In this document: positions 2,081 to 49,714 of the stretch, piece by piece | Layout: each line of letters begins with the position of its first letter | Position numbering within the stretch: the first letter of the stretch is position 1 | Source: Chloracidobacterium sp. | Lineage (GTDB): Bacteria; Acidobacteriota; Blastocatellia; Chloracidobacteriales; Chloracidobacteriaceae | Length of the DNA stretch: 64,000 nucleotides | Assembly: GCA_025057975.1 (NCBI GenBank) | Contig: JANWUV010000001.1 | Coordinates: 310,001-374,000 of the forward strand | Direction: 5' to 3' | Notes under the pieces: model-generated | What the model saw: only the letters and a program-made list of their open reading frames with translations | What the model was told of the DNA's origin: nothing | The model's database searches: none | Translations under genes and position numbers: made by a program

Positions 2081-4751
2081 CGGGCGGCCACTCACGGAAT
2101 CTCGACAGGCTGCTCTGTCCGGCTTCAGTACTCCGAATGACGCCGGAGGCGTCCACGTAGAAAACACGTCCGCCAGTCAGACCTGGAATGGTCGGCGTCG
2201 CCAGCACAAAGAAATCCGCCGGGCTGGCTGGCGTCGCCTCGGTGACATAAAGCATCAGTCGGTAGTCCGCCATCGCCCATAGGTCATCCGGTAGGTGGCT
2301 GTACGCCTTGAGTTGCGCCGGTGTAGCGAAATTGCCGCCCGAAACCAACTGGAAGGCCGTCTGGGCGGCGACCAATTGCGCCAAACGTTCCACGACCAGC
2401 GCCTCGTTGCGTTTGATCCGCTCATCAGTGCCAATTGCGCCGTCCGGGCGGAGACTGCGCAGCGATAGCCACGTCGGTACGTTTTGGGCGGCGGCGTGGC
2501 GGAGGGGCAGCCGACGAACCAGCGCGGCGACTGCCGTTTCCGCCGGAGGCATGGACGGCGTTGTCGGACGTACCTCGAACGGAGGCTCATCCGTTGCGTT
2601 TACGGCCGTCGCATCCGGCGCAGGCGTGGGGGGTGGTGCGGCCGCCGGCGACGGGAGCGAGTCTGCGGCAGGCATCCGCCCAGTCAGCGTCGGCGGCGCA
2701 GCGGCAACGGTCAGCAGGCCTTCGCCGCTTGTCCATCGCGGCAGGACGCGCGCCGGACGCAGTTGCTCCGAGGCCGGACGCGCTTCGGCGAGCCGTTCTA
2801 AAACCGGACGCGCGCCCGGCGTCTCGCGGTCAGCGACCAGCGGCGGAGGCGGCGGGGCGGGCGACGCTGTAGGGAGCGCCGCATCGGGTATGCGTGGCGG
2901 CGGCAGTACGGCGACCAGCGGCGGCGTGGCCGGAGCGGTAGGCAGCATCATGCGCGGCAGGCGTAAACGATCCAGCGCGGCGACGGCCGCCTGCCGAACG
3001 TCCGGCGAGCCGTCCTCGCGCGCTAGCCGTCGCAGCACTGTCGCTGTCTCCGGCGGCACGTCTTGCAGCGCTGGCGTTAGCGCGAGCCAGTTGGCGCGGA
3101 CGGACGGGTCAGCTTCCGTGGGCAACCGCCGTGTCGCCTCCCGGATAAAGCGGGCTGGATCGGTCCGCGCCAACCCCAAGACCGCCGCCCGGCGCACGTC
3201 CGGGTCGGCGTCTTCCAGCGCGGCTTGCAGCCATTCGGCGGCGTTCGGCGCGTTGACAACCACCACAAGCGCCAGCAGCGCCCCGCGTCGGCGCAGGGCT
3301 TCAGGCGCGCGGAGGAGGGTTTCCAGCCTTGTCGCGGCGGCGTCCACAGCGTTGAAAAAACCGGCAAAGGTCGTGCGGTGGGCCGACAACTCATCGAAGG
3401 TCATCCGCCCGATGGTTTCGACGACGCCGGTAAATGCCTCCTCTGAACCAAGGCGAGCCAGCGCAAAAGCCGCCGCGCTGCGCAGAGCGTTATCATTGGA
3501 CTGAAGCACGGCAAGCAGGACCGGCAAGGCGCGTGCGCCGCCGATGCGGGGCAACACAGCGACGGCGGCGGCGCGAACAGTTGGGTTGGCGTCCGCCAAC
3601 GCCGACTGAATAGCGGGAAGCGCTCGCGCGTCACCGATCTTACCAAGCGATTCAACCGCGCGGCGGCGCAGCAGTGGATCGTCGGCGGTTAGGGTTTGGA
3701 TGAGCGCCTCCGTTGCGCGGTCATCCTTGAAGCCACCTAACGCTTGGACAGCCAGCGTTCGCACCAGCGGATCGCCGTCGCGCAGAGCATCCGTCACGGC
3801 GTCGAGGGTACGCGGGACGGCAAGCGCGCCTAAGGCGTCCACAGCGCGGGCGCGCACGCGGGCGTCTTCATCGCGCAGCGCATCGGTCAAAGCGTCGGCA
3901 GCCGTGTCGTCGCCAATCTTCCCCAGCGCAAAAGCGGCGTTCTGACGGACGACGGCCTCGCGGTCGCGGAGGGCGTCCACCAGCGGCAGTACGGCCCGGC
4001 GGTCACGTAGGCGGCCCAGCGCCTCAGCCGCGCTTGCGCGGACGGTTCGCTCCGGGTCACGCAACAACTCAATGACTTTGTCAACGGCGCGCGCGTCACC
4101 AATGATCCCAAGCGCCATCGTGGCGCGGCTGCGGACATACAGGTTAGCGTCGCCCAACGCGCGCAGGAGCGGCTCAACGGCTTCCCTGCGACCGAGCGCG
4201 CCAAGCGCCTCGGCCGCACCGATCCGCACCTCCGGTTCGGCGTCGGACAACGACCCGACCAACGCCGGAAGCGACGCCGCATCGCCCAGCTTGCCAAGCG
4301 CCTGCGCGGCGGCGCTGCGGACGGTCGGTTCAGCGTCCCGCAGTCGCAGACGCAACGCCGTCGCCGCCTGTGGACGCCCTAGCCGCGCCAAGGCGAGCGC
4401 CGCCGCCGCTCGTACGTCGGGACTACTGTCGTTGAGGGCGGCGATAAGGCCATCCAGAGCGAGTTCACTTTTGAGGTTGCCAAGAGCTTCAGCGGCGGCG
4501 CTACGAACAAGAAAATCCCGGTCGCCGCGCAAGGCTTCCAGCAGCGGCGTCACTTGGCGCTCATCACCGGAACGACCAAGCTCTTCAACAGCGCGGCAGC
4601 GGGCTTCACGATCCTGTAGCTCGCCCAGGCTGCGCCGCCCATCCTGCGCCGCTGTCGGTGAGACGTTTGACCAGACGCTTCCGGCGATGACGCCCACCAA
4701 GAACGCGCCCAGCATCAAGAACCGTCGCGCATGAGGTCCAATCTGCGACAT
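1908..4751 (-). CDS. HEAT-repeat (PBS-lyase-like) exported protein with pilin-like C-terminal domain
   Basis: The predicted protein has 947 residues. Residues about 10-30 form a signal peptide or anchor. From about 45 to 620 runs a near-regular array of roughly 17-19 HEAT repeats of about 31 residues, with recurring RAAAAEALGKLGD-like cores. A long Pro/Ala linker follows. A small domain then ends in FYVDASGVIR, a motif I associate with the C-terminus of acidobacterial pseudopilin-like proteins. It is probably a scaffold; no catalytic motif is seen. The start at 4751 gives the signal sequence, whereas the open frame back to 5219 overlaps the glycosyltransferase. The final ~57 codons are antisense to the PP2C gene and look like read-through. 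Confidence 0.85.
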   Translation of the reverse strand: MSQIGPHARRFLMLGAFLVGVIAGSVWSNVSPTAAQDGRRSLGELQDREARCRAVEELGRSGDERQVTPLLEALRGDRDFLVRSAAAEALGNLKSELALDGLIAALNDSSPDVRAAAALALARLGRPQAATALRLRLRDAEPTVRSAAAQALGKLGDAASLPALVGSLSDAEPEVRIGAAEALGALGRREAVEPLLRALGDANLYVRSRATMALGIIGDARAVDKVIELLRDPERTVRASAAEALGRLRDRRAVLPLVDALRDREAVVRQNAAFALGKIGDDTAADALTDALRDEDARVRARAVDALGALAVPRTLDAVTDALRDGDPLVRTLAVQALGGFKDDRATEALIQTLTADDPLLRRRAVESLGKIGDARALPAIQSALADANPTVRAAAVAVLPRIGGARALPVLLAVLQSNDNALRSAAAFALARLGSEEAFTGVVETIGRMTFDELSAHRTTFAGFFNAVDAAATRLETLLRAPEALRRRGALLALVVVVNAPNAAEWLQAALEDADPDVRRAAVLGLARTDPARFIREATRRLPTEADPSVRANWLALTPALQDVPPETATVLRRLAREDGSPDVRQAAVAALDRLRLPRMMLPTAPATPPLVAVLPPPRIPDAALPTASPAPPPPPLVADRETPGARPVLERLAEARPASEQLRPARVLPRWTSGEGLLTVAAAPPTLTGRMPAADSLPSPAAAPPPTPAPDATAVNATDEPPFEVRPTTPSMPPAETAVAALVRRLPLRHAAAQNVPTWLSLRSLRPDGAIGTDERIKRNEALVVERLAQLVAAQTAFQLVSGGNFATPAQLKAYSHLPDDLWAMADYRLMLYVTEATPASPADFFVLATPTIPGLTGGRVFYVDASGVIRSTEAGQSSLSRFREWPPVSAPMENPAQPAAGSATDRRRPSTIRRQTPTPSTAASPRLAKGVRAANAPAALQPVP

Positions 4752-4807
4752 GGCGGTTTCTTCCTCGCTTCTTTCCCGGATGCACGGATGTCTTCGTTCG
4801 CCGATGA

Positions 4808-5845
4808 TCACGTCCGCCTGATGATGTTCACAGGCGGTTCGGCGGACGCACGCGCCCGCATTGCATCCGCACGACCCATCTGTTCGGCGATGTTCCCGCA
4901 GCGCCACGCTATGACTCTGGCCCGCAGCGCCTGTCGTCGCTTTTCGACCACAGCTGGCAACAGCAGTCGCGCCGCCATCTTGGCGCGCGCCCGCCAGCCG
5001 GGCGCCGCCGACCAACTTGACCAAGCCAACACGGCGGCGCGGCGACGTGCGCCCGCGCGCGCAAAAGCTTCCGCGTACGTCCACGTCAACTCGGCGGCGG
5101 CGCGGCGGCGTTCCACGTCCGACAGGCCCATCCAGTCGGCGGCGCGGGCCTGCGCAGCCAGCGTCTCCGTCAGCATGAAGTCCACGTCGCGGCTGGTGTT
5201 GCGCCCGTGCCGCCGCCAAGCGGCGCGCGCTTCCGCATCTAGCGCAAAATCACCAAGGCGACACAGCCGCAGGTACAACTCATAGTCTTCCAGTCGGGCT
5301 CGTTCATTCCAGCCGAACCGGGCCAGCGCGGCCGTCCGATACAGAACGGTGGAACTCATCGGCGCGCCGCCGCGCAGGAGCATGGCGCGTACGTCGCCGT
5401 CCGTGTAGCGCGCCCACCAGCGCGTGTCGTCCACAATGTCGTCGTCGGCATTGACGACCAGCGCATGGCCGTAGGCAAGAACGGCCGGCGGACGCGCTTC
5501 GAGCATCGCCGCGCGCGTCGCCAGAAAGTCGGGCAGCCAGAGGTCGTCCGAGCCGAGGTAGGCGAAATAAGGTGCGTTGCAGTAACCAAGGGCTTCGTTG
5601 AGCGTCGCGCACAGCCCCCGGTTGACGGCGTGGACGATGAGTTCGCAAGGGAAAGGACATTCGGCCAGCGTTTCGGCGATGATGCGCGCCGAATCGTCGG
5701 GCGAAGCGTCATCAATAACGAGCAACTTGGTCGGCGGTTGGGTTTGGCGGAAGATGGAGCGCAGCGTACGCGCCACAAAACGCGCGTGACCATACGAAGG
5801 GACGACAACGAACACACCGGCGGCGGGCGCGGTGACGACGTTCAC
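4808..5845 (-). CDS. Family 2 glycosyltransferase
   Basis: This 345-residue GT-A-fold enzyme would transfer a sugar from a nucleotide-sugar donor. Near the N-terminus VFVVVPSYGHARFVARTL is the nucleotide-binding start, LVIDDASPDDS follows, and YLGSDDLWLPDF carries the metal-binding DxD-type motif. LEDYELYLRLCRLG is the usual acceptor-side segment. The C-terminal ~130 residues are Arg/Ala-rich and may contact the membrane. The GTG start at 5845 forms a GTGA overlap with the stop of the upstream GT4 gene, which decides the start despite an open frame to 6193. The HEAT gene follows after 56 bases, so the four genes probably form one operon. Donor and acceptor are unknown. Confidence 0.9.
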   Translation of the reverse strand: MNVVTAPAAGVFVVVPSYGHARFVARTLRSIFRQTQPPTKLLVIDDASPDDSARIIAETLAECPFPCELIVHAVNRGLCATLNEALGYCNAPYFAYLGSDDLWLPDFLATRAAMLEARPPAVLAYGHALVVNADDDIVDDTRWWARYTDGDVRAMLLRGGAPMSSTVLYRTAALARFGWNERARLEDYELYLRLCRLGDFALDAEARAAWRRHGRNTSRDVDFMLTETLAAQARAADWMGLSDVERRRAAAELTWTYAEAFARAGARRRAAVLAWSSWSAAPGWRARAKMAARLLLPAVVEKRRQALRARVIAWRCGNIAEQMGRADAMRARASAEPPVNIIRRT

Positions 5846-6954
5846 AGGGCAATCACCCGGTCGTAAAAATCGCGTAGTCGGTTGAGGTACGCCGCCAGAG
5901 TATAGCGTCGGCGCGCATGCGCTTGTCCACGCGCGGCCAGCGTACGGCGGTAGGGCAGGTCGTCCAACAACTGGTTGAGGACGCGCGCGCAGTCCACCGA
6001 ATCCCCGGCGCGAAAGAGCGCGGCAGCGGTACCGTCGGCAGTGACTTCGCGCAGGGCGGGAATGTCCGAGGCGGCGCAAGGGACGCCGGCTAGCATGGCT
6101 TCCACCAGCGCCAACCCGAAGGTGTCGCTGTGTGAAGAAAGAACAAACACATCCAGCTTCGGCAACACGTCGGCGGCCGGACGCGCGCCCCAAAAATGAA
6201 CGCGGTGCAGGAGGCCGCCGCGCGCACAGATGGCGCGCGCCTCACGGTAGAGTCGTTCGTCCTGCGCCGCCCCGACAAACACGCACTGCGCCGTCGGCCG
6301 GCGCTGGAAAACCTCCGGCAGCGCCCGGCACAGCGTGGCGTGATCCTTGATGGGGGTAAAGTTGGCAATCATGCCGAGTATCGGCCCGGTTGCGGGAGCG
6401 TCCGCTGCAGAAGCCGCCGGCCGAGCCGGATCGGGGACGCCGTTGGGGATGACCGCCACCCGCTGGGCGCAGTCGAGGCGAAGCATGCCGTCGGCTTCAT
6501 GCCGGCTTCGTGCGGCTTCGGAGACGACCGTTACGGCGTCCACGCGCGGCAGCAGGAAGTTGAGCGCCCGGCGGTTTTTGGCGTCGTAGGCAAGGTTATG
6601 GAGCGTGAGGACAAGCTTGGCCGGCAGGCCGCGCCGCGCCCACCACGCATGGAGCGCCTCGACGGCTTGGTTGGCATGAATGAGGTCAATGGCCTGCGTT
6701 TGGATGAGACGACGCAGCCAGCCAGCGAGCCTAGGGTCAAACGGCGCGCGCCGGCGGTGGAAAAACGACCGAGGCAGAGCGTGAAAGGCGTCGGCGAAGT
6801 TCCCGTCACCAAAACCGGCGACATAAGCTTCAATCCCGACGGTGGCTGCGTTTTGGCAGGTCGCCAGCGTCAATGTCTCGACGCCGCCCCGGTTGAGCGA
6901 GTCGAGCAGATACAAAACACGCAGGGGATTGGCTCGTCCGGCGCTGCGGCTCAC
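5842..6954 (-). CDS. Family 4 glycosyltransferase
   Basis: This 370-residue GT-B enzyme begins with RVLYLLDSLNRGGVETLTL, the glycine-rich N-terminal loop typical of GT4. It contains VIPNGVPDP and GMIANFTPIKDH near the domain junction. The C-terminal donor site is VFVLSSHSDTFGLALVEAML, the E-x7-E-like region, followed by VPCAASDIPALREV. It would use a nucleotide-sugar in surface glycan or glycoconjugate synthesis. The start is GTG at 6954, overlapping the kinase stop as GTGA, and the gene overlaps the following GT2 start in the same way. The coupling suggests that kinase, GT4 and GT2 are made in step. Confidence 0.92.
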   Translation of the reverse strand: MSRSAGRANPLRVLYLLDSLNRGGVETLTLATCQNAATVGIEAYVAGFGDGNFADAFHALPRSFFHRRRAPFDPRLAGWLRRLIQTQAIDLIHANQAVEALHAWWARRGLPAKLVLTLHNLAYDAKNRRALNFLLPRVDAVTVVSEAARSRHEADGMLRLDCAQRVAVIPNGVPDPARPAASAADAPATGPILGMIANFTPIKDHATLCRALPEVFQRRPTAQCVFVGAAQDERLYREARAICARGGLLHRVHFWGARPAADVLPKLDVFVLSSHSDTFGLALVEAMLAGVPCAASDIPALREVTADGTAAALFRAGDSVDCARVLNQLLDDLPYRRTLAARGQAHARRRYTLAAYLNRLRDFYDRVIAL

Positions 6955-9515
6955 GCCGTGGCGTTGCCGGCGGTTGGCGACGCGGCCGCCGAGCCAAGGA
7001 AAGGTTGCATCAGTTGCTCCCAGCTTTGCCGGACGGGTTCAATAATCGCTTGAAATGCAGGCGTTTCGCGGAGTCGCGCCCAATCAGGATTCGAGATAAA
7101 CCACGGGTAGTTCTCATTACCGAGCGCGATGGCACGGCGCAGCCAGTAGAGGGCGTCTTCGTCGTCGCCTAACGCGGCGTAAAGCGTCGCCAACCAGTAG
7201 GCGGCGTCCCCATCAGCGTTGGCAATCTCGCGGACGGCGTCGTTGATGAGGGCGCGGGCGCGATCCGGCTGGCCTTCAATGACAAAGCCAAGCCCGTAGA
7301 TTGGACGAAAAGCATGCAGGTCGGGGTTACGCTCAAAGAGTTCCCGGAACGTACGGGCTGATTCAGCGTAGCGTCCTTGGTAGTAGAGCACCTGCCCAAG
7401 CACCATCGAGGCAAAGGGGTGATTGGGTTCGACAAACAGCGCCCCGTCAAGGTACTCAAGGGCTTCTTCGTAGTGTCCTTGGTACATGGCAATGCGCGCG
7501 CGGTTGTAGGAAACCCGGACGAAATCCGTCGGATCAAGCCGCAAACAGGCCTCGTATTCGGCGAGGGCCGGGCCGTACAACCCGTCCCACCGGTGCAAAT
7601 ACGCAGCCGTGTTGTGGGCGGCCGGGTCGTTAGGCGCAATGGCCAGCATCCGGCGAACCTGCTCGCGGGCGCGCGCCTTCTCGCCCTTCAGCAGGTAGTA
7701 GTAGACCATGTTGATTTGCGGCTCGATAAGCGAGTCATCCAGCGCCAGCGCCTGTCGGAAACGTTCGGCGGCGCGTTCGAAGTACAGCGCTCCACCAATC
7801 CCCTTCAGGACATACTCGACATAACACAGCCCCATTCCGGAGTGCGCCAGCGCGAAGTTGGGGTCACAGGCTAGAGCGTTTTCAAACATTTCCGTCGCCG
7901 CGCTGAAGTCGTCCTTGAGCATGGTCTGGCGGAACCGCTGCAACTGGTTACGCCCGCGTAGGTAGTACTCAAACGCCTCCGCGTTGCGGGTCGTCGGTTT
8001 GGCGATGCGTTCTTGCTCGGTCGGGCTAATGCGGACACGCAGTTCCTCGCAGATTTTCTGCGCCAGCGTATCTTGGAGCGTGATGAGGTCCTGCGCGTCG
8101 AGGTCAATCTTGTCGCTCCAGAGAATCTCGCCCGTGTGGACATCAATCAGCTGCGGCGTCACGCGCATCCGGTGCCCGGACTTGACATAGGCGCTCGTCA
8201 TAATCGCGTCCACCTGCAGCTCGTTGCCGACATAAATCGGATCAAGGTCGCGTCCTTGGTACTTCGCCATGTAGCTTGACGGACGCACGACGATGGATTT
8301 GAGGCCGGCTAGTTCGGTGATCACGCTGTCAGCGAGCGAAAAGCTGTAGAAGTCGGTCTGGGGGTCGCCGCTGAGGTTACGGAACGGGAGAATGGCGATG
8401 GAGCGTTTATCGGAGGTCCGCCACGAGCTGGGCATCGAATCGCGTAGTCCTTGCCCTTTGTCAGCAATGTCTTCGGTTTTTTTCTCGGCCGGTTCGGCTG
8501 GGCGGGGCGTCGCCGCCGGTTGCACAGTCGGCTGATTGGTCGGTGGACGGTCGGCGGTTCCGCGCAGACGGCTGATGAGGCGGCCGACGACGCCGCCGGT
8601 GAGCCAATTGCTGCGCTCATGGCGCGGGGCGACCATCGGCAGCAGGGAGTCATCCGTCAACGGTTGGCCGGTTTGCATTTGCACCGCGCGCAGCAGTTGC
8701 TTGAGCTCCGCTTGGAACTCGCGCATGGTCTGGTAGCGCGCCGTGACCTCCTTAGCCGTCGCCTTTTCGAGAATGGCCTGTAACCGTTCCGGCGCAGCCG
8801 GGTTAAAGGCGGACAATGGCGGCAGGGGTTCGTGCATGATGGCATGCATGACGTCCACGCTGCTCTTCCCTTGGAAGGGGAGACGTCCGGTGGCCATCTC
8901 ATAAATGACAATGCCAAGGGAAAAGATGTCGGAGCGGGCGTCAATTGTGCCGCCACGCGCTTGTTCTGGCGACATGTAGCCCGCCGTACCGAAAGGGACG
9001 CCGGCTTGTGTCAGTTCCATGACCGACTCATCCCCAATCGTCTTGGTCGTCGCCTTGGCGAGGCCGAAGTCAAGAATTTTCGCTTGACCGCGGTCGTTAA
9101 CAATGATGTTGGTGGCCTTGACATCACGGTGAATGATGCCGCGTTCATGGGCGGCGGCCAGAGCGTCGGCCAGCTGGACGGCGATGGAGAGTGTACTTTC
9201 CACATCGAGCGCGCGTCCGCGAACCATCTGCTTGAGGCGTTTGCCTTCGAGGTACTGCATGACGATGAAATGCAGGCCACGGTCTTCGTTGATTTCGTAA
9301 ACGGTGCAGATGTTAGGGTGGTCGAGAGCGGAGGCCAGCTGAGCCTCACGGAGGAAGCGCTTACGGGTTTTTTCGTCGGCGACCAATTCAGCCGGCAGGA
9401 TTTTGATGGCGACGATACGCCGCAAGCGGGTGTCCTCAGCTTGATAGACTTCGCCTTGCCCGCCTTCACCGATTTTTTTGAGGAGCTTGTAGTGGAGCAG
9501 GTAGGTGCCAATCAT
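6951..9515 (-). CDS. Ser/Thr protein kinase with TolB-like and TPR domains
   Basis: The 854-residue protein starts with a Hanks-type kinase domain (about 8-275): glycine loop GEGGQGEVY, Lys38, HRDVKATN at 129-136, DFGLAK at 149-154 and GYMSPEQARGG. After a Pro-rich linker comes RSIAILPFRNLSGDPQTDFY (from residue 371). It opens a TolB/FlgO-like domain of the kind fused to adenylate cyclases and CadC-like regulators. The last ~320 residues are TPR repeats. No membrane helix is evident, so it is likely cytosolic. The ATG at 9515 is preferred over 9551 because GAGGGTGGA precedes it and the kinase fold begins at once. It heads the kinase-GT4-GT2-HEAT operon. Confidence 0.92.
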   Translation of the reverse strand: MIGTYLLHYKLLKKIGEGGQGEVYQAEDTRLRRIVAIKILPAELVADEKTRKRFLREAQLASALDHPNICTVYEINEDRGLHFIVMQYLEGKRLKQMVRGRALDVESTLSIAVQLADALAAAHERGIIHRDVKATNIIVNDRGQAKILDFGLAKATTKTIGDESVMELTQAGVPFGTAGYMSPEQARGGTIDARSDIFSLGIVIYEMATGRLPFQGKSSVDVMHAIMHEPLPPLSAFNPAAPERLQAILEKATAKEVTARYQTMREFQAELKQLLRAVQMQTGQPLTDDSLLPMVAPRHERSNWLTGGVVGRLISRLRGTADRPPTNQPTVQPAATPRPAEPAEKKTEDIADKGQGLRDSMPSSWRTSDKRSIAILPFRNLSGDPQTDFYSFSLADSVITELAGLKSIVVRPSSYMAKYQGRDLDPIYVGNELQVDAIMTSAYVKSGHRMRVTPQLIDVHTGEILWSDKIDLDAQDLITLQDTLAQKICEELRVRISPTEQERIAKPTTRNAEAFEYYLRGRNQLQRFRQTMLKDDFSAATEMFENALACDPNFALAHSGMGLCYVEYVLKGIGGALYFERAAERFRQALALDDSLIEPQINMVYYYLLKGEKARAREQVRRMLAIAPNDPAAHNTAAYLHRWDGLYGPALAEYEACLRLDPTDFVRVSYNRARIAMYQGHYEEALEYLDGALFVEPNHPFASMVLGQVLYYQGRYAESARTFRELFERNPDLHAFRPIYGLGFVIEGQPDRARALINDAVREIANADGDAAYWLATLYAALGDDEDALYWLRRAIALGNENYPWFISNPDWARLRETPAFQAIIEPVRQSWEQLMQPFLGSAAASPTAGNATA

Positions 9516-45956: not shown

Positions 45957-46850
45957 ATGGACGACACTCAGCAGCAAATGCGACTCAAGACCGGCTTGGC
46001 GGAGATGCTCAAAGGCGGCGTCATTATGGATGTCGTCAACGTCGAGCAAGCCCGCATTGCCGAAGAAGCCGGGGCGGTAGCCGTGATGGCCTTGGAGCGC
46101 GTGCCGGCCGACATTCGGCGGGACGGCGGTGTGGCGCGCATGTCGAATCCACGCCTGATTCGCCAAATCATGGAAGCCGTCTCGATTCCGGTGATGGCCA
46201 AGGTGCGCATTGGCCATACGGCCGAAGCACAGGTGCTTGAAGCCCTTGGTGTGGATTTTATTGATGAGTCGGAGGTGCTGACGCCGGCCGACCCCTACCA
46301 CCATATCAACAAATTCGCCTTCCGTGTCCCGTTTGTCTGCGGCGCGACGAATCTCGGCGAGGCGCTGCGGCGAATTGGAGAAGGCGCGGCGATGATTCGG
46401 AGTAAGGGCGAGGCCGGGACTGGCAACATCATTGAGGCGGTGCGGCATTTGCGCGAAATCCGGCGCGACATTCGGTTGCTGACGGTTCTTGACGAAGATG
46501 AGTTGATGGCGGAAGCCAAGCGCCTACAAGCGCCGTATGAGCTGGTGCGCTATGTGGCGCAGCACGGCAAGCTGCCCGTACCGCTTTTCGCCGCCGGTGG
46601 TGTGGCGACCCCAGCTGACGCTGCGCTGTGTATGCAACTGGGGGCGGAAACGGTGTTTGTCGGCTCTGGCATCTTCAAGTCCGATGATCCGGCGCGTTTC
46701 GCCCGCGCCATCGTCAAAGCCGTGACATTTTACCAAGACCCGGCCAAAGTACTGGAGGCCTGCGAGGAAATCGAAGACGGCCAGCCTATGCGCGGGCTGG
46801 CGATTGAGACGCTTCCAGCCGAACAGGTCTTGGCAGCGCGCGGTTGGTAG
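45957..46850 (+). CDS. pdxS: Pyridoxal 5'-phosphate synthase, lyase subunit PdxS
   Basis: The 297-residue TIM-barrel enzyme makes PLP from ribose 5-phosphate, glyceraldehyde 3-phosphate and ammonia. [40 protein letters not shown] and MAKVRIGH with the catalytic Lys are highly conserved, as are [16 protein letters not shown] and [14 protein letters not shown]. Start 45957 fits the family N-terminus and has GGAGG 11 bases upstream; the open frame to 45759 overlaps larB. The glutaminase partner pdxT is not adjacent. Confidence 0.97.
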
Positions 46851-46979: not shown

Positions 46980-47099
46980 ATGTCGCTACGTGAACTCAAG
47001 ATTGTTCGTGTGACGCCGGTCGGTGCAGCGCCGACCTACAATCTGACGATGCGTGCGCCGCACCACAACTATTTCGTCAACGGCGTCCTGACGGCGAAT
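46980..47099 (+). other. Split-intein C-terminal fragment (IntC) at the head of DnaE-C
   Basis: Residues 1-40 carry the two C-terminal intein blocks: TYNLTM (block F start), then HHNYFVNGVLTAN (block F end and block G). The last residue Asn40 would cyclise, and Ser41 is the +1 nucleophile. The penultimate residue is Ala rather than His, as in the Synechocystis DnaE intein. The extein junction falls before SHS, three residues after the cyanobacterial DnaE site (before CFNKSHS). The fragment is about the length of known IntC halves (35-40 residues). Confidence 0.87.
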
Positions 47100-48296
47100 A
47101 GTCACTCGGTCTGCTACGGCATCCTTGCCTACCGGACGGCGTACCTCAAAGCGCATTACCCGGCGCACTTTTGGGCCGCTGTCCTGACGAATGAACTCAG
47201 CGACAGCGACAAGGTGGCGCGCTACCTTGAGAGTGCACGCGCACAAGGCGTTGAGATTTTGCCGCCCGATGTCAACGTCAGCCAGCATGGCTTTACGGTG
47301 ACGGAAGGCAAAATTCGCTTTGGATTGATGGCCATCAAGGGACTTGGCGAAGCGACAGTGGACGCCATCCTTGATGCCCGTGAACAACAAGGACCGTTCA
47401 GGTCGCTCTTTCATTTCACTGAGCGGGTTGACCCCAAAGCTCTCAATCGGCGTGTCTTGGAAAGCCTTGTGAGGTCTGGCGCGTTTGACGGTCTTCCGGG
47501 CACGCGCGCCCAGAAGTTCGCTGCCATTGACGCCGCACTTGAACATGGCGCACGGGCGCACCGGGATGCAGCCGCCGGTCAAGTCTCGCTGTTTGATGGA
47601 CTCACTGGTGACACAGCCCAGGCGCTGGAGACGGCGCTGCCGAATGTTCCTGACTGGACACCTAAAGAAAGCCTTGCTGGTGAAAAGGCGACGTTAGGGT
47701 TTTACCTTACTGGGCATCCGTTGGCTGCGTTCCGTGAAACCTTGAAAAGCCTCAAAAGCCTTTCCTGTGCGCAACTTGCAGAGCAGAACTCCGGCGATGA
47801 GGTGCGTGTCGGCGGCATCGTCAGCAACTTTACGGTGAAGAATACAAAAAAGGGCGAACGCTTTGCTGTTTTCAGCCTTGAAGATGAAACCGGCGGGATT
47901 GAAGTCATTGCGTGGCCGGAAACGTTCAGACGACTTGGCGACAAGGTACAAGACGACGCAGCGATTCTTGTCACCGGTCGCTTGGAACTTGAAGACGGCG
48001 TACCGACACGGCTTATCGCCGAAGCAGCCGAACCGCTCGAAGGCCTGCGCGAACGTCAGGCACGAAGTGTGACGATTCGCCTGCCAGCGACGGCGCTCGA
48101 CACGGCGCGAGTTGAAAAACTTTGCGAGGTCATTGACCAGCATCGTGGGGAGCGCCCCCTCATGTTTATTGTGCGTTTGCCTTCCGGCATGGAAGCTACA
48201 CTTCGCGCACATCGCGCCTTTGACGTACGCCCTTCACCAGAGCTACTTGAGGCTTTGCAAGCGGCTCTTCCGGATTGCATCATTGAACTTCAGTGA
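46980..48296 (+). CDS. dnaE: DNA polymerase III alpha, C-terminal half fused to an N-terminal C-intein (split dnaE)
   Basis: The 438-residue product begins with about 40 residues of intein C-terminal half (see 46980-47099), then from Ser41 continues as DnaE: SHSVCYGILAYRTAYLKAHY, PDVNVSQHGFTVTEGKIRFG, GLMAIKGLGEATVDAIL, the OB domain (VRVGGIVSNFTVKNTKKG, then FSLEDETGGIEVIAWPE) and the C-terminal domain. The PHP and palm domains are absent. An in-frame TGA at 46959-46961 and the complete pdxS gene just upstream show that the split is physical. Function therefore requires an N-terminal DnaE-intein half encoded elsewhere, joined by trans-splicing. No clear ribosome-binding site precedes the ATG. 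Confidence 0.9.
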   Translation: MSLRELKIVRVTPVGAAPTYNLTMRAPHHNYFVNGVLTANSHSVCYGILAYRTAYLKAHYPAHFWAAVLTNELSDSDKVARYLESARAQGVEILPPDVNVSQHGFTVTEGKIRFGLMAIKGLGEATVDAILDAREQQGPFRSLFHFTERVDPKALNRRVLESLVRSGAFDGLPGTRAQKFAAIDAALEHGARAHRDAAAGQVSLFDGLTGDTAQALETALPNVPDWTPKESLAGEKATLGFYLTGHPLAAFRETLKSLKSLSCAQLAEQNSGDEVRVGGIVSNFTVKNTKKGERFAVFSLEDETGGIEVIAWPETFRRLGDKVQDDAAILVTGRLELEDGVPTRLIAEAAEPLEGLRERQARSVTIRLPATALDTARVEKLCEVIDQHRGERPLMFIVRLPSGMEATLRAHRAFDVRPSPELLEALQAALPDCIIELQ

Positions 48297-48817
48297 CCTG
48301 TTCCCGGAGGGCGTTGATCACGGCGCGGTTGGAAGAAGGGACTCCAGTAACGACCTAAGCCGAGCTTGCCGCCGTCGCATCGGTTGGTGGCGCGCCGGAC
48401 AGTCCTGACTTTTGCCGAAGTGTTGGCGCTCGACCTCTCTTGCTGGAGCCAGCATTCCCACTACAGATGGCGTTCCCTTGGAAAGCGTCTGGATCGCCTG
48501 CAAAACCTGCCTCGACGATTGTCTGGGCGGCGCTGGCGTGGGCGGTATTGAGGCGGTGGAACGAGACGGGCAAGAGGCCGCGGCGTGAGCAGCTTGCGGC
48601 TGGTTGGGCAAGTGGAAGGGGAGTCTCACAGGGTGGCGAGCGGTGGTTGCGGTTGTGTACGCGGCGGGTCAGTTTGCGCCAGCAGCGGCGGAAGTGGGAC
48701 GTATTCGTGCGGAAGCGGCTGAAACGCAGCTGCAGGTGAGAGAGTGCGAGCGGCGGGCCTTGAAACTAGAGCATTTGTGCACGTTGCCGGAAAGTCCAAT
48801 CCTTGACAGGCCGCAAA
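48297..48817. other. Unassigned stretch downstream of dnaE-C
   Basis: This stretch of 521 bases holds only short overlapping frames, the longest rightward one at 48604-48879 (91 codons) running antisense into the next gene. Translations are rich in Arg, Trp and Ala with no recognisable domain. It may be a decayed gene; I see no repeats at its ends and no RNA. Confidence 0.4.
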
Positions 48818-49714
48818 TCACCCCAAGGCTTTATTTGACGCCGACTCAGGCAGCCAAAGAACTCCCTTCCTTGGAATAGTAATCTGGCTTGGTTGAAGAC
48901 CAACCTCAAATGAATCACAGGCCGACGCAGCTTCAAGGCAACGAGTGCATAAGGCGTTTAACTGCCGACGAACATCCGCTTCGATGTGTAGCAGCGTTTC
49001 GTGAAGGTCTGGGTCACTCACCACCTGGCTCAACGGCTGGTTGTCTTCGGCAGTGACAACCAATCGCTCGCCGCTCGAAAAGAGCGCCTCAAGACGATTC
49101 ACCGAAGAAAAAAATTCCTGCCGTCGGTTATTCACAATTTCATTGAGTTTGGCTTCCGGGAGATTTCTGGCAAGTCCCTTTCGCTCGGCCGCCGCTTGTA
49201 CTTGCAATAGCTTGAGGTTGACGCGCGCCGTTAGCGCCGTCAGTTCATCTTCAATCGTGTCGGCGGCCGACTCGGCCAGTCGCCTGATGAAGCTTTCCCG
49301 CGTTTCCCCAACTTCGGAAAAGGCGTCAAACTGCCGGTTAAACCACAGCCGGAGCTTCTCACGTCGCGCCAGCCAATCCACGAGTTCTTCTACGTGGCCC
49401 GATAATGCCGCGTCATCCAACAAGCATCCGTGCAACTGGTAAGGGAGTTCACGCGGCGGCGACTTCCACAGCCGATCCTCCGTCAAACCGGAGGGGTCAA
49501 GCGGCGGATGCTCCCAGTCAGGGCTACCCTCACCGCGCGGAACCCAGGCTAGAAACCGTCGCTCTTCCGTGTGTTTGAGCCGCGCCCGTAGGCTGTGAAA
49601 CTTCAGGCTGCATTCGACCAACCACGCCGGCCGGTAGCCGTCGGCCGTATCCGGTACGGGGGCAAGCCAGTACTGCGGCACATTGAGGGTTGGCGGCGAC
49701 AACAACGTCGTCAT
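48818..49714 (-). CDS. Uncharacterised protein resembling the C-terminal part of HerA-like ATPases
   Basis: The 298-residue protein starts MTTLLSPPTLNVPQYWLAPV and YRPAWLVECSLKFHS. The centre is a long helical, Glu/Ala/Arg-rich region (about 130-200, SAADTIEDELTALTARVNLK) and the end reads KGVLWLPE. That order recalls the region after the ATPase domain in some HerA/FtsK-like bacterial proteins, but no Walker motifs are present here. It may be a stand-alone subunit or unrelated. It follows argS by 39 bases on the same strand. Confidence 0.6.
   Translation of the reverse strand: MTTLLSPPTLNVPQYWLAPVPDTADGYRPAWLVECSLKFHSLRARLKHTEERRFLAWVPRGEGSPDWEHPPLDPSGLTEDRLWKSPPRELPYQLHGCLLDDAALSGHVEELVDWLARREKLRLWFNRQFDAFSEVGETRESFIRRLAESAADTIEDELTALTARVNLKLLQVQAAAERKGLARNLPEAKLNEIVNNRRQEFFSSVNRLEALFSSGERLVVTAEDNQPLSQVVSDPDLHETLLHIEADVRRQLNALCTRCLEAASACDSFEVGLQPSQITIPRKGVLWLPESASNKALG

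Follow-up and report, generated by a model that had tools for sequence, protein, structure and literature searches.

Introduction

Split DnaE inteins and fractured genes are both already known. The two halves of the split DnaE of cyanobacteria are encoded by distant genes. Fractured genes, said to have been described by Dassa et al. in 2009, reportedly consist of an N-half gene, a free Vsr-like endonuclease gene and a C-half gene around a split intein. Here we analyze a dnaE half-gene in a 64,000-nucleotide stretch (the window) of a Chloracidobacterium sp. genome (GCA_025057975.1, contig JANWUV010000001.1, positions 310,001 to 374,000). The open reading frame (ORF) at window positions 46980-48296 very probably encodes, as a separate protein, the C-terminal half of the cell's sole DnaE, which a split intein joins to an N-half encoded elsewhere. 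What is valuable in this case is the series of stages found at one insertion site among relatives.

In common with the cyanobacterial Ssp and Npu DnaE inteins are the host protein and a split that falls between blocks B and F and leaves parts of ~100 and ~40 residues. This is the usual position of the endonuclease in inteins (PMC11923092). The host here, in contrast, belongs to the Acidobacteriota, insertion is at FN[KR]|SHS rather than Y|CFN, the +1 residue is Ser and not Cys, and some living relatives retain an endonuclease gene between the two halves. The order N-half, free endonuclease, C-half typical of fractured genes is shared by five of 15 intein-bearing genomes, the window's own not among them. 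In contrast to fractured genes, the inteins here lie on bacterial chromosomes, interrupt the only DnaE of the cell and reach a dispersed state in the window's genus; the endonuclease is of the LAGLIDADG type in an overlapping frame, as against the reportedly Vsr-like one, and a viral contig described below has a DUF559 protein in its place.

The dnaE of Desulfonema ishimotonii is likewise non-cyanobacterial, consists of two adjacent coding sequences and bears an intein. That intein, however, is contiguous (415 residues) within one coding sequence, and a split intein is denied by the authors (PMC6390638). No report of this Chloracidobacterium split polymerase was found in the open-licence literature, a scope outside which key older papers fall. 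Chloracidobacterium thermophilum B appears in a table of intein alleles in PMC4071816, whose text contains neither "DnaE" nor "split intein", and the main text of a Chloracidobacterium genome paper (PMC8245765) contains neither "intein" nor "dnaE".

Genomes and comparisons

The window's genome (G000; 3.52 Mb, 99.9% complete) was compared with a genus set of seven Chloracidobacterium genomes, G000 included, of which G001, G005 and G006 are 2-contig assemblies. A class set of 162 Blastocatellia genomes was searched with the C-half as query (147 with a match, 15 without). At least 15 of the 162 bear the intein, and counts given below out of 15 refer to these; two families besides the window's genus, labelled f3 and f4, are represented. 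Ratios of nonsynonymous to synonymous substitution rates (dN/dS) were calculated by the Nei-Gojobori method as medians over the 21 genus pairs. Linkers were compared by similarity score against 2000 shuffles, and figures are the number of shuffles scoring as high. The DnaE tree has 35 rows; G148, being truncated, was omitted from trees.

The two halves of DnaE

The features of the C-half locus are as follows (window coordinates).

46980..48296, plus strand: dnaE-C ORF, C-intein plus C-terminal part of DNA polymerase III alpha, 438 amino acids (aa); present in 7/7 genus genomes
46980..47099, plus strand: C-intein (IntC), 40 aa, blocks F and G, reading ...HHNYFVNGVLTAN, net charge +3; supported by motifs, conservation and dN/dS
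47100..48293, plus strand: DnaE C-extein starting SHS, 398 aa, HHH_6 and OB-fold by Pfam; Ser +1 codon AGT
45957..46850, plus strand: complete pdxS, start codon chosen by us; NCBIfam E 4e-149, not a polymerase part

The ORF opens with MSLRELKIVRVTPVGAAPTYNLTMRAPHHNYFVNGVLTAN, runs through an intein ending in VNGVLTAN and continues with SHSVCYG and the remainder of the 398 DnaE residues. NCBIfam DnaE models start matching at residue 40/41 (best E 1.8e-102), and both HHH_6 and the OB-fold are recovered by Pfam. The ORF and these matches agree with the initial annotation, made from the sequence of the window, which had placed a C-intein of about 40 residues before a DnaE C-terminal part of about 398 residues from Ser41. 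The in-frame TGA it noted 21 bases upstream is present. Its reading of the preceding gene as a complete pdxS is borne out as well, so that the polymerase N-half is not contiguous with the C-half. The genes hemB-larB-pdxS precede dnaE-C in all six genus C-half loci compared (the window's included, that of G002 not).

An N-half ending near FNK and followed by an intein N-half with blocks A and B, which the initial annotation had proposed to look for, was found in the same genome. The gene (L001 595-3303, on contig C6) encodes 902 aa, with DnaE-N up to FADYAFNK fused to a 137-residue N-intein (IntN) bearing blocks A and B. TIGR01445 intein_Nterm recognises the start of IntN (E 1.2e-9; 39.1 bits, with the cut-off at 24.5). 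A genome-wide search with the DnaE palm domain PF07733 gave a single match in G000, inside this N-half ORF, and no intact dnaE was found there besides the split gene; such a contiguous full-length dnaE was what the annotation had named as the case against it. A second intact dnaE was considered for the other intein-bearing genomes too and was ruled out by one PF07733 match in each of the 15. With one palm-domain match per genome, the split gene is the only DnaE of the cell.

Both halves are present yet separate in 7/7 genus genomes. They lie 0.7-1.4 Mb apart on contig 1 of each 2-contig assembly (~1.12 and 2.56 Mb in G001, ~1.09 and 2.52 Mb in G005, ~1.75 and 2.47 Mb in G006), and on different contigs in the other four genomes, G000 included. 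An assembly or binning artefact, in which misassembly separated the halves of one gene, could be suspected from the draft state of G000 (86 contigs). It is excluded in practice by the separation of the halves in all seven genomes, three of them in 2 contigs, and the in-frame stop and the recurrent hemB-larB-pdxS upstream of the C-half also speak against it. An NtrC-family regulator gene follows the N-half, and another follows the intact dnaE of G010; the two share 39.5% over 448 aa. That the C-half, rather than the N-half, was the migrant in the genus is only suggested by this, because the two regulators have different best models (AtoC and NtrX).

Conservation and predicted trans-splicing

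No intein profile matches the C-intein. It was identified by its conservation, as at least 15 of the 162 class genomes have this block in front of SHS. Cys1, the block B TxxH, the F-block His, the terminal Asn and Ser+1 are conserved in 15/15. Net charges range from -10 to -20 for IntN and from +2 to +6 for IntC in 15/15, the pair of the window's genome having -16 and +3. Purifying selection acts on both intein parts within the genus, where median dN/dS reaches 0.160 in the IntN core and 0.142 in IntC, compared with 0.047 and 0.100 for the exteins (21 pairs each). Beyond its core, IntN has a tail that is nearly unconstrained, with a dN/dS of 0.699 (13/21 pairs usable). The useful IntN is therefore shorter than the ORF suggests, the tail beginning after LALYA (L002, N-half end). 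Kinship with cyanobacterial inteins was seen using the contiguous intein of the relative G009, not the window's own halves, as query: residues 7-160 of its 160 align with the structure 1zd7, a DnaE intein of Synechocystis (E 1.2e-9).

The two halves very probably splice in trans. Acidic IntN and basic IntC would associate and fold into a Hint domain. Splicing would then proceed as in a class 1 intein, with Cys1 attacking at Lys-1, Ser+1 taking the acyl group and the terminal Asn cyclising. The expected product is a contiguous alpha subunit of 1163 residues reading ...FADYAFNK-SHSVCYG..., and growth would need this splicing. With Chloracidobacterium, apparent dependence of the only DnaE on trans-splicing would extend beyond the cyanobacteria to another bacterial lineage.

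Several points weigh against a spliced polymerase. The 40 C-intein residues match no intein family in Pfam or NCBIfam at E up to 1, and IntN scores 13.9 bits against the Pfam Intein_splicing cut-off of 35.8, i.e. below it. The penultimate intein residue is Ala, not His, in 15/15; a penultimate His is also lacking in cyanobacterial DnaE inteins, where Ser or Ala occurs according to PMC5874633. The halves of G000 lie on two contigs of a draft, so their distance rests on the relatives. An alternative is a non-covalent two-chain polymerase, in which the intein pieces would only dock the halves or be relics. Such an arrangement has a precedent in a ribonucleotide reductase that works as two peptides, its gene having been split by a homing endonuclease (PMC10448857). 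We consider it highly unlikely here, given the conservation of Cys1, block B TxxH, terminal Asn and Ser+1 in 15/15 and purifying selection on the genus IntN core and IntC beside a nearly free IntN tail. A DnaE joined by trans-splicing is the reading we retain.

Insertion site and host lineage

The junction is FADY[AG]FN[KR]|SHS in 15/15, four residues past the cyanobacterial site. Cyanobacterial DnaE inteins have Tyr at -1 (PMC4031507) and a C-extein starting CFN (PMC7313076); insertion between Tyr-1 and Cys-Phe-Asn is not what is found here. The shifted site before SHS and the exchange of Cys for Ser at +1 had been proposed in the initial annotation, as had a non-cyanobacterial lineage, and both hold: the junction is FNK|SHS, and NCBI taxonomy places the genus in Acidobacteriota, Blastocatellia. 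These inteins would provide new natural pairs with Ser at +1 for protein ligation.

Other inteins occupy the same position. In a Chloroflexi metagenome-assembled genome (L131) the mini-intein at FNK|SHA is contiguous, and the viral contig L133 (IMGVR_UViG_3300029568_000166, 4284-7167) carries a fractured DnaE at FNK|SHS, indicating that the site has been re-used. The gene between the halves in L133 encodes an endonuclease-like DUF559 protein (E 2.8e-8; matches to MTES_1575 and NUMOD3 fall below cut-off). In a phylum search (396 genomes, evenly drawn), the eight strongest among the matches listed came from genomes already known and covered query residues 1 or 2 to 73. Weaker matches outside the class also reached upstream of the site (e.g. 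G162 33%, G287 38%, G308 45%, G467 48%, G290 50%), where an unrelated intein may be present.

Intein forms among relatives

The 15 intein-bearing genomes comprise five with an endonuclease gene between the halves, one with a scar (G014), one with a Uma2 gene (G007), one with a contiguous intein (G009) and the seven dispersed forms of the genus. One site in one gene thus holds fractured, scarred, Uma2-bearing (another nuclease family), contiguous and dispersed forms, which makes the origin of a split intein testable, from the sequence in which the steps took place to homing of the fractured unit and a possible re-fusion.

DnaE-N, endonuclease and DnaE-C lie in a row in G025, G033, G147, G150 and G151. 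The endonuclease is of the LAGLIDADG type, with PF14528 LAGLIDADG_3 matching at E 1.9e-13 and 1e-10 in the two of five tested; the other three are 60-63% identical to that of G033. Its ATG is at intein base 308 in the +1 frame in 5/5. The IntN stop falls inside the endonuclease gene at base 330-351, so that the end of IntN is read from that gene out of frame. The endonuclease stop in turn overlaps the C-half start as ATGA (5/5), and the gene thus overlaps both halves. It is without internal stop in 5/5, with dN 0.056 and dS 0.257 between G150 and G151. Intein-coding length is a multiple of 3 in all eight co-located loci, one of which is contiguous and so trivially conforms.

In G014 the endonuclease is gone; the 65 bases between that ATG position and the start of the C-half, translated in the endonuclease frame, still give MPRTAWNKRLTPEIEERITRYL-stop. 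When this linker was scored against the opening 60 bases of each of the five endonuclease genes, 0, 0, 1, 0 and 0 of 2000 shuffles did as well; it is, by sequence similarity, a scar of an endonuclease gene. In G007 the halves flank a Uma2-family gene (PF05685, E 1.8e-14). Since Uma2 genes are common in these genomes (17 matches in G000, 8 in G005, 15 in G007 and 50 in G009), this one may be a chance lodger. G009 has a contiguous mini-intein with a linker resembling that of G014 (1 of 2000). None of the seven dispersed genus genomes has a match to the endonuclease at E <= 0.001.

A second, contiguous LAGLIDADG intein, G[IV]|C...HN|C[VT]YQEQ, lies upstream in the same dnaE of G007 (L063 4466-8392), G033 (L064 1763-5650) and G009 (L067 2563-7575), the copy in G009 being the shortest, so that each of these polymerases has two inteins.

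Source of the endonuclease and origin of the split

Seventeen of the 162 class genomes match the endonuclease in some way, with strong matches only at the five dnaE loci; the next-best (E 1.8e-19) has 32% identity over part of the sequence. Among phages, 140 records match, 89 of them over >= 80% of the query. Alignments begin at residue 3 in two of the 10 records listed and at residue 6 in four; both records looked up place the match in a separate endonuclease coding sequence. The best phage match, a LAGLIDADG endonuclease of Alicyclobacillus phage MMB025 (95% of the query alignable, 34.9% identity, E 7e-33), lies between two annotated DNA polymerase coding sequences but, as annotated, not inside an intein. 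A 2-sequence endonuclease profile found no relative in viral contigs, and a profile search of PDB sequences returned three chance matches only (E 0.28-0.95). A fold search reached E 7.5e-6 at low template modelling scores (~0.2-0.5). The 50 PDB fold matches listed are, by title or otherwise, LAGLIDADG-type proteins. The modelled endonuclease has its own N-terminal helical segment (mean predicted local distance difference test score 73).

The phage homology reaches the segment overprinted by IntN, and we therefore favour a split caused by such a gene inserting into a mini-intein. We tentatively propose, at somewhat below an even chance, that a phage- or intron-type LAGLIDADG endonuclease gene entered a contiguous mini-intein out of frame, split it and spread by homing, and that the halves parted later. 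Overlapping N, endonuclease and C genes would have arisen in one step when the gene landed. The three-gene fractured unit would then have spread by homing between bacterial families and decayed through loss of the endonuclease, replacement or re-fusion, and the halves would have come apart into two unlinked genes in the ancestor of Chloracidobacterium. If this one-step birth is true, Blastocatellia hold every step alive except, perhaps, the uninvaded starting mini-intein. A route from contiguous to split intein appears in the review PMC5874633 as speculation only.

Some of the data count against this origin. When the G014 linker was compared with the last 30 bases of the five endonuclease genes, 9, 3, 1027, 184 and 94 of 2000 shuffles scored as high. 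No trace of the LAGLIDADG endonuclease was detected in G007 (best 162 of 2000), the G009 linker shows no convincing match to the endonuclease gene (108 to 1134 of 2000), and only two of 13 inner branches of the intein tree are well supported.

A different origin is possible but more doubtful: a contiguous intein with a nested endonuclease may have been broken by frameshifts or rearrangement, or the gene may have split first, the free endonuclease genes of the relatives being secondary. Genome rearrangement as a source of split inteins is likewise offered as speculation in PMC5874633. Two compensating frameshifts would also give the length multiple of 3 seen in 8/8 co-located loci, and three of these dnaE genes bear an ordinary nested LAGLIDADG intein at the other site. 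Frameshift or rearrangement accords poorly with an endonuclease that has its own N-terminal helical segment, with phage matches that begin at residue 3 or 6 and are separate coding sequences where looked up, and with an IntN that continues into the endonuclease gene out of frame.

Re-fusion of a split intein is possible for G009. That its mini-intein is instead ancestral and was never split has nearly even prospects. The lack of a convincing endonuclease match in its linker would fit an ancestral form, but that linker aligns with the endonuclease-derived linker of G014 at 1 of 2000. The G009 intein also shares 68% with that of G014 but 61% with that of the sister host G007, the exteins showing the reverse (63% vs 81%).

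Horizontal movement

Between f3 and f4, inteins are 64-74% identical and exceed the exteins (52-55%) in 9/9 pairs. G033 and G150, of different families, share 74% in the intein versus 53% in the extein, compared with 71% versus 78% for G033 and G025 of one family. No intein excess is seen between the window's genus and f3 (inteins 48-53%, exteins 58-60%). Presence of the intein requires five changes on the DnaE tree.

The +1 Ser codon is AGY in 15/15 filled sites. Among 25 empty loci, drawn from the 132 other matching class genomes, 15 have TCN, five AGY and five Ala (Fisher 4.9e-6 for filled versus empty, kinship ignored). In one f4 genus the filled sites of G150 and G151 have AGC and the empty site of G152 has TCG, the fourth member (G149) having Ala. 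A second f4 genus repeats the contrast with G147 (filled, AGC) and G148 (empty, TCG). The first 30 bases past the site are 77-80% identical between G150/G151 and G152; identity in the nine bins that follow is 87-100% except in one, which falls back to 77%. With this pattern no clear conversion tract emerges, and co-conversion at homing is better indicated by the codon switch. Inteins more alike than their polymerases between families, together with the codon contrast in two genera, point to horizontal movement.

The five empty sites with Ala at +1 (FNRAHS, FCAAHA) are L015, L018, L019, L022 and L120, in G021, G040, G029, G046 and G149, respectively. Usual splicing of an intein would not be possible at these alleles, which might be resistant to the intein.

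Surroundings of dnaE-C

A promoter and terminator scan gave nothing exceeding shuffles. About 500 bases downstream of dnaE-C (window 48297-48818) are without a clear gene, and the next open frames vary among genus members. A Uma2-like frame lies closely downstream of dnaE-C in 3/7 genus genomes, namely G001 (L071), G005 (L069) and G006 (L073).
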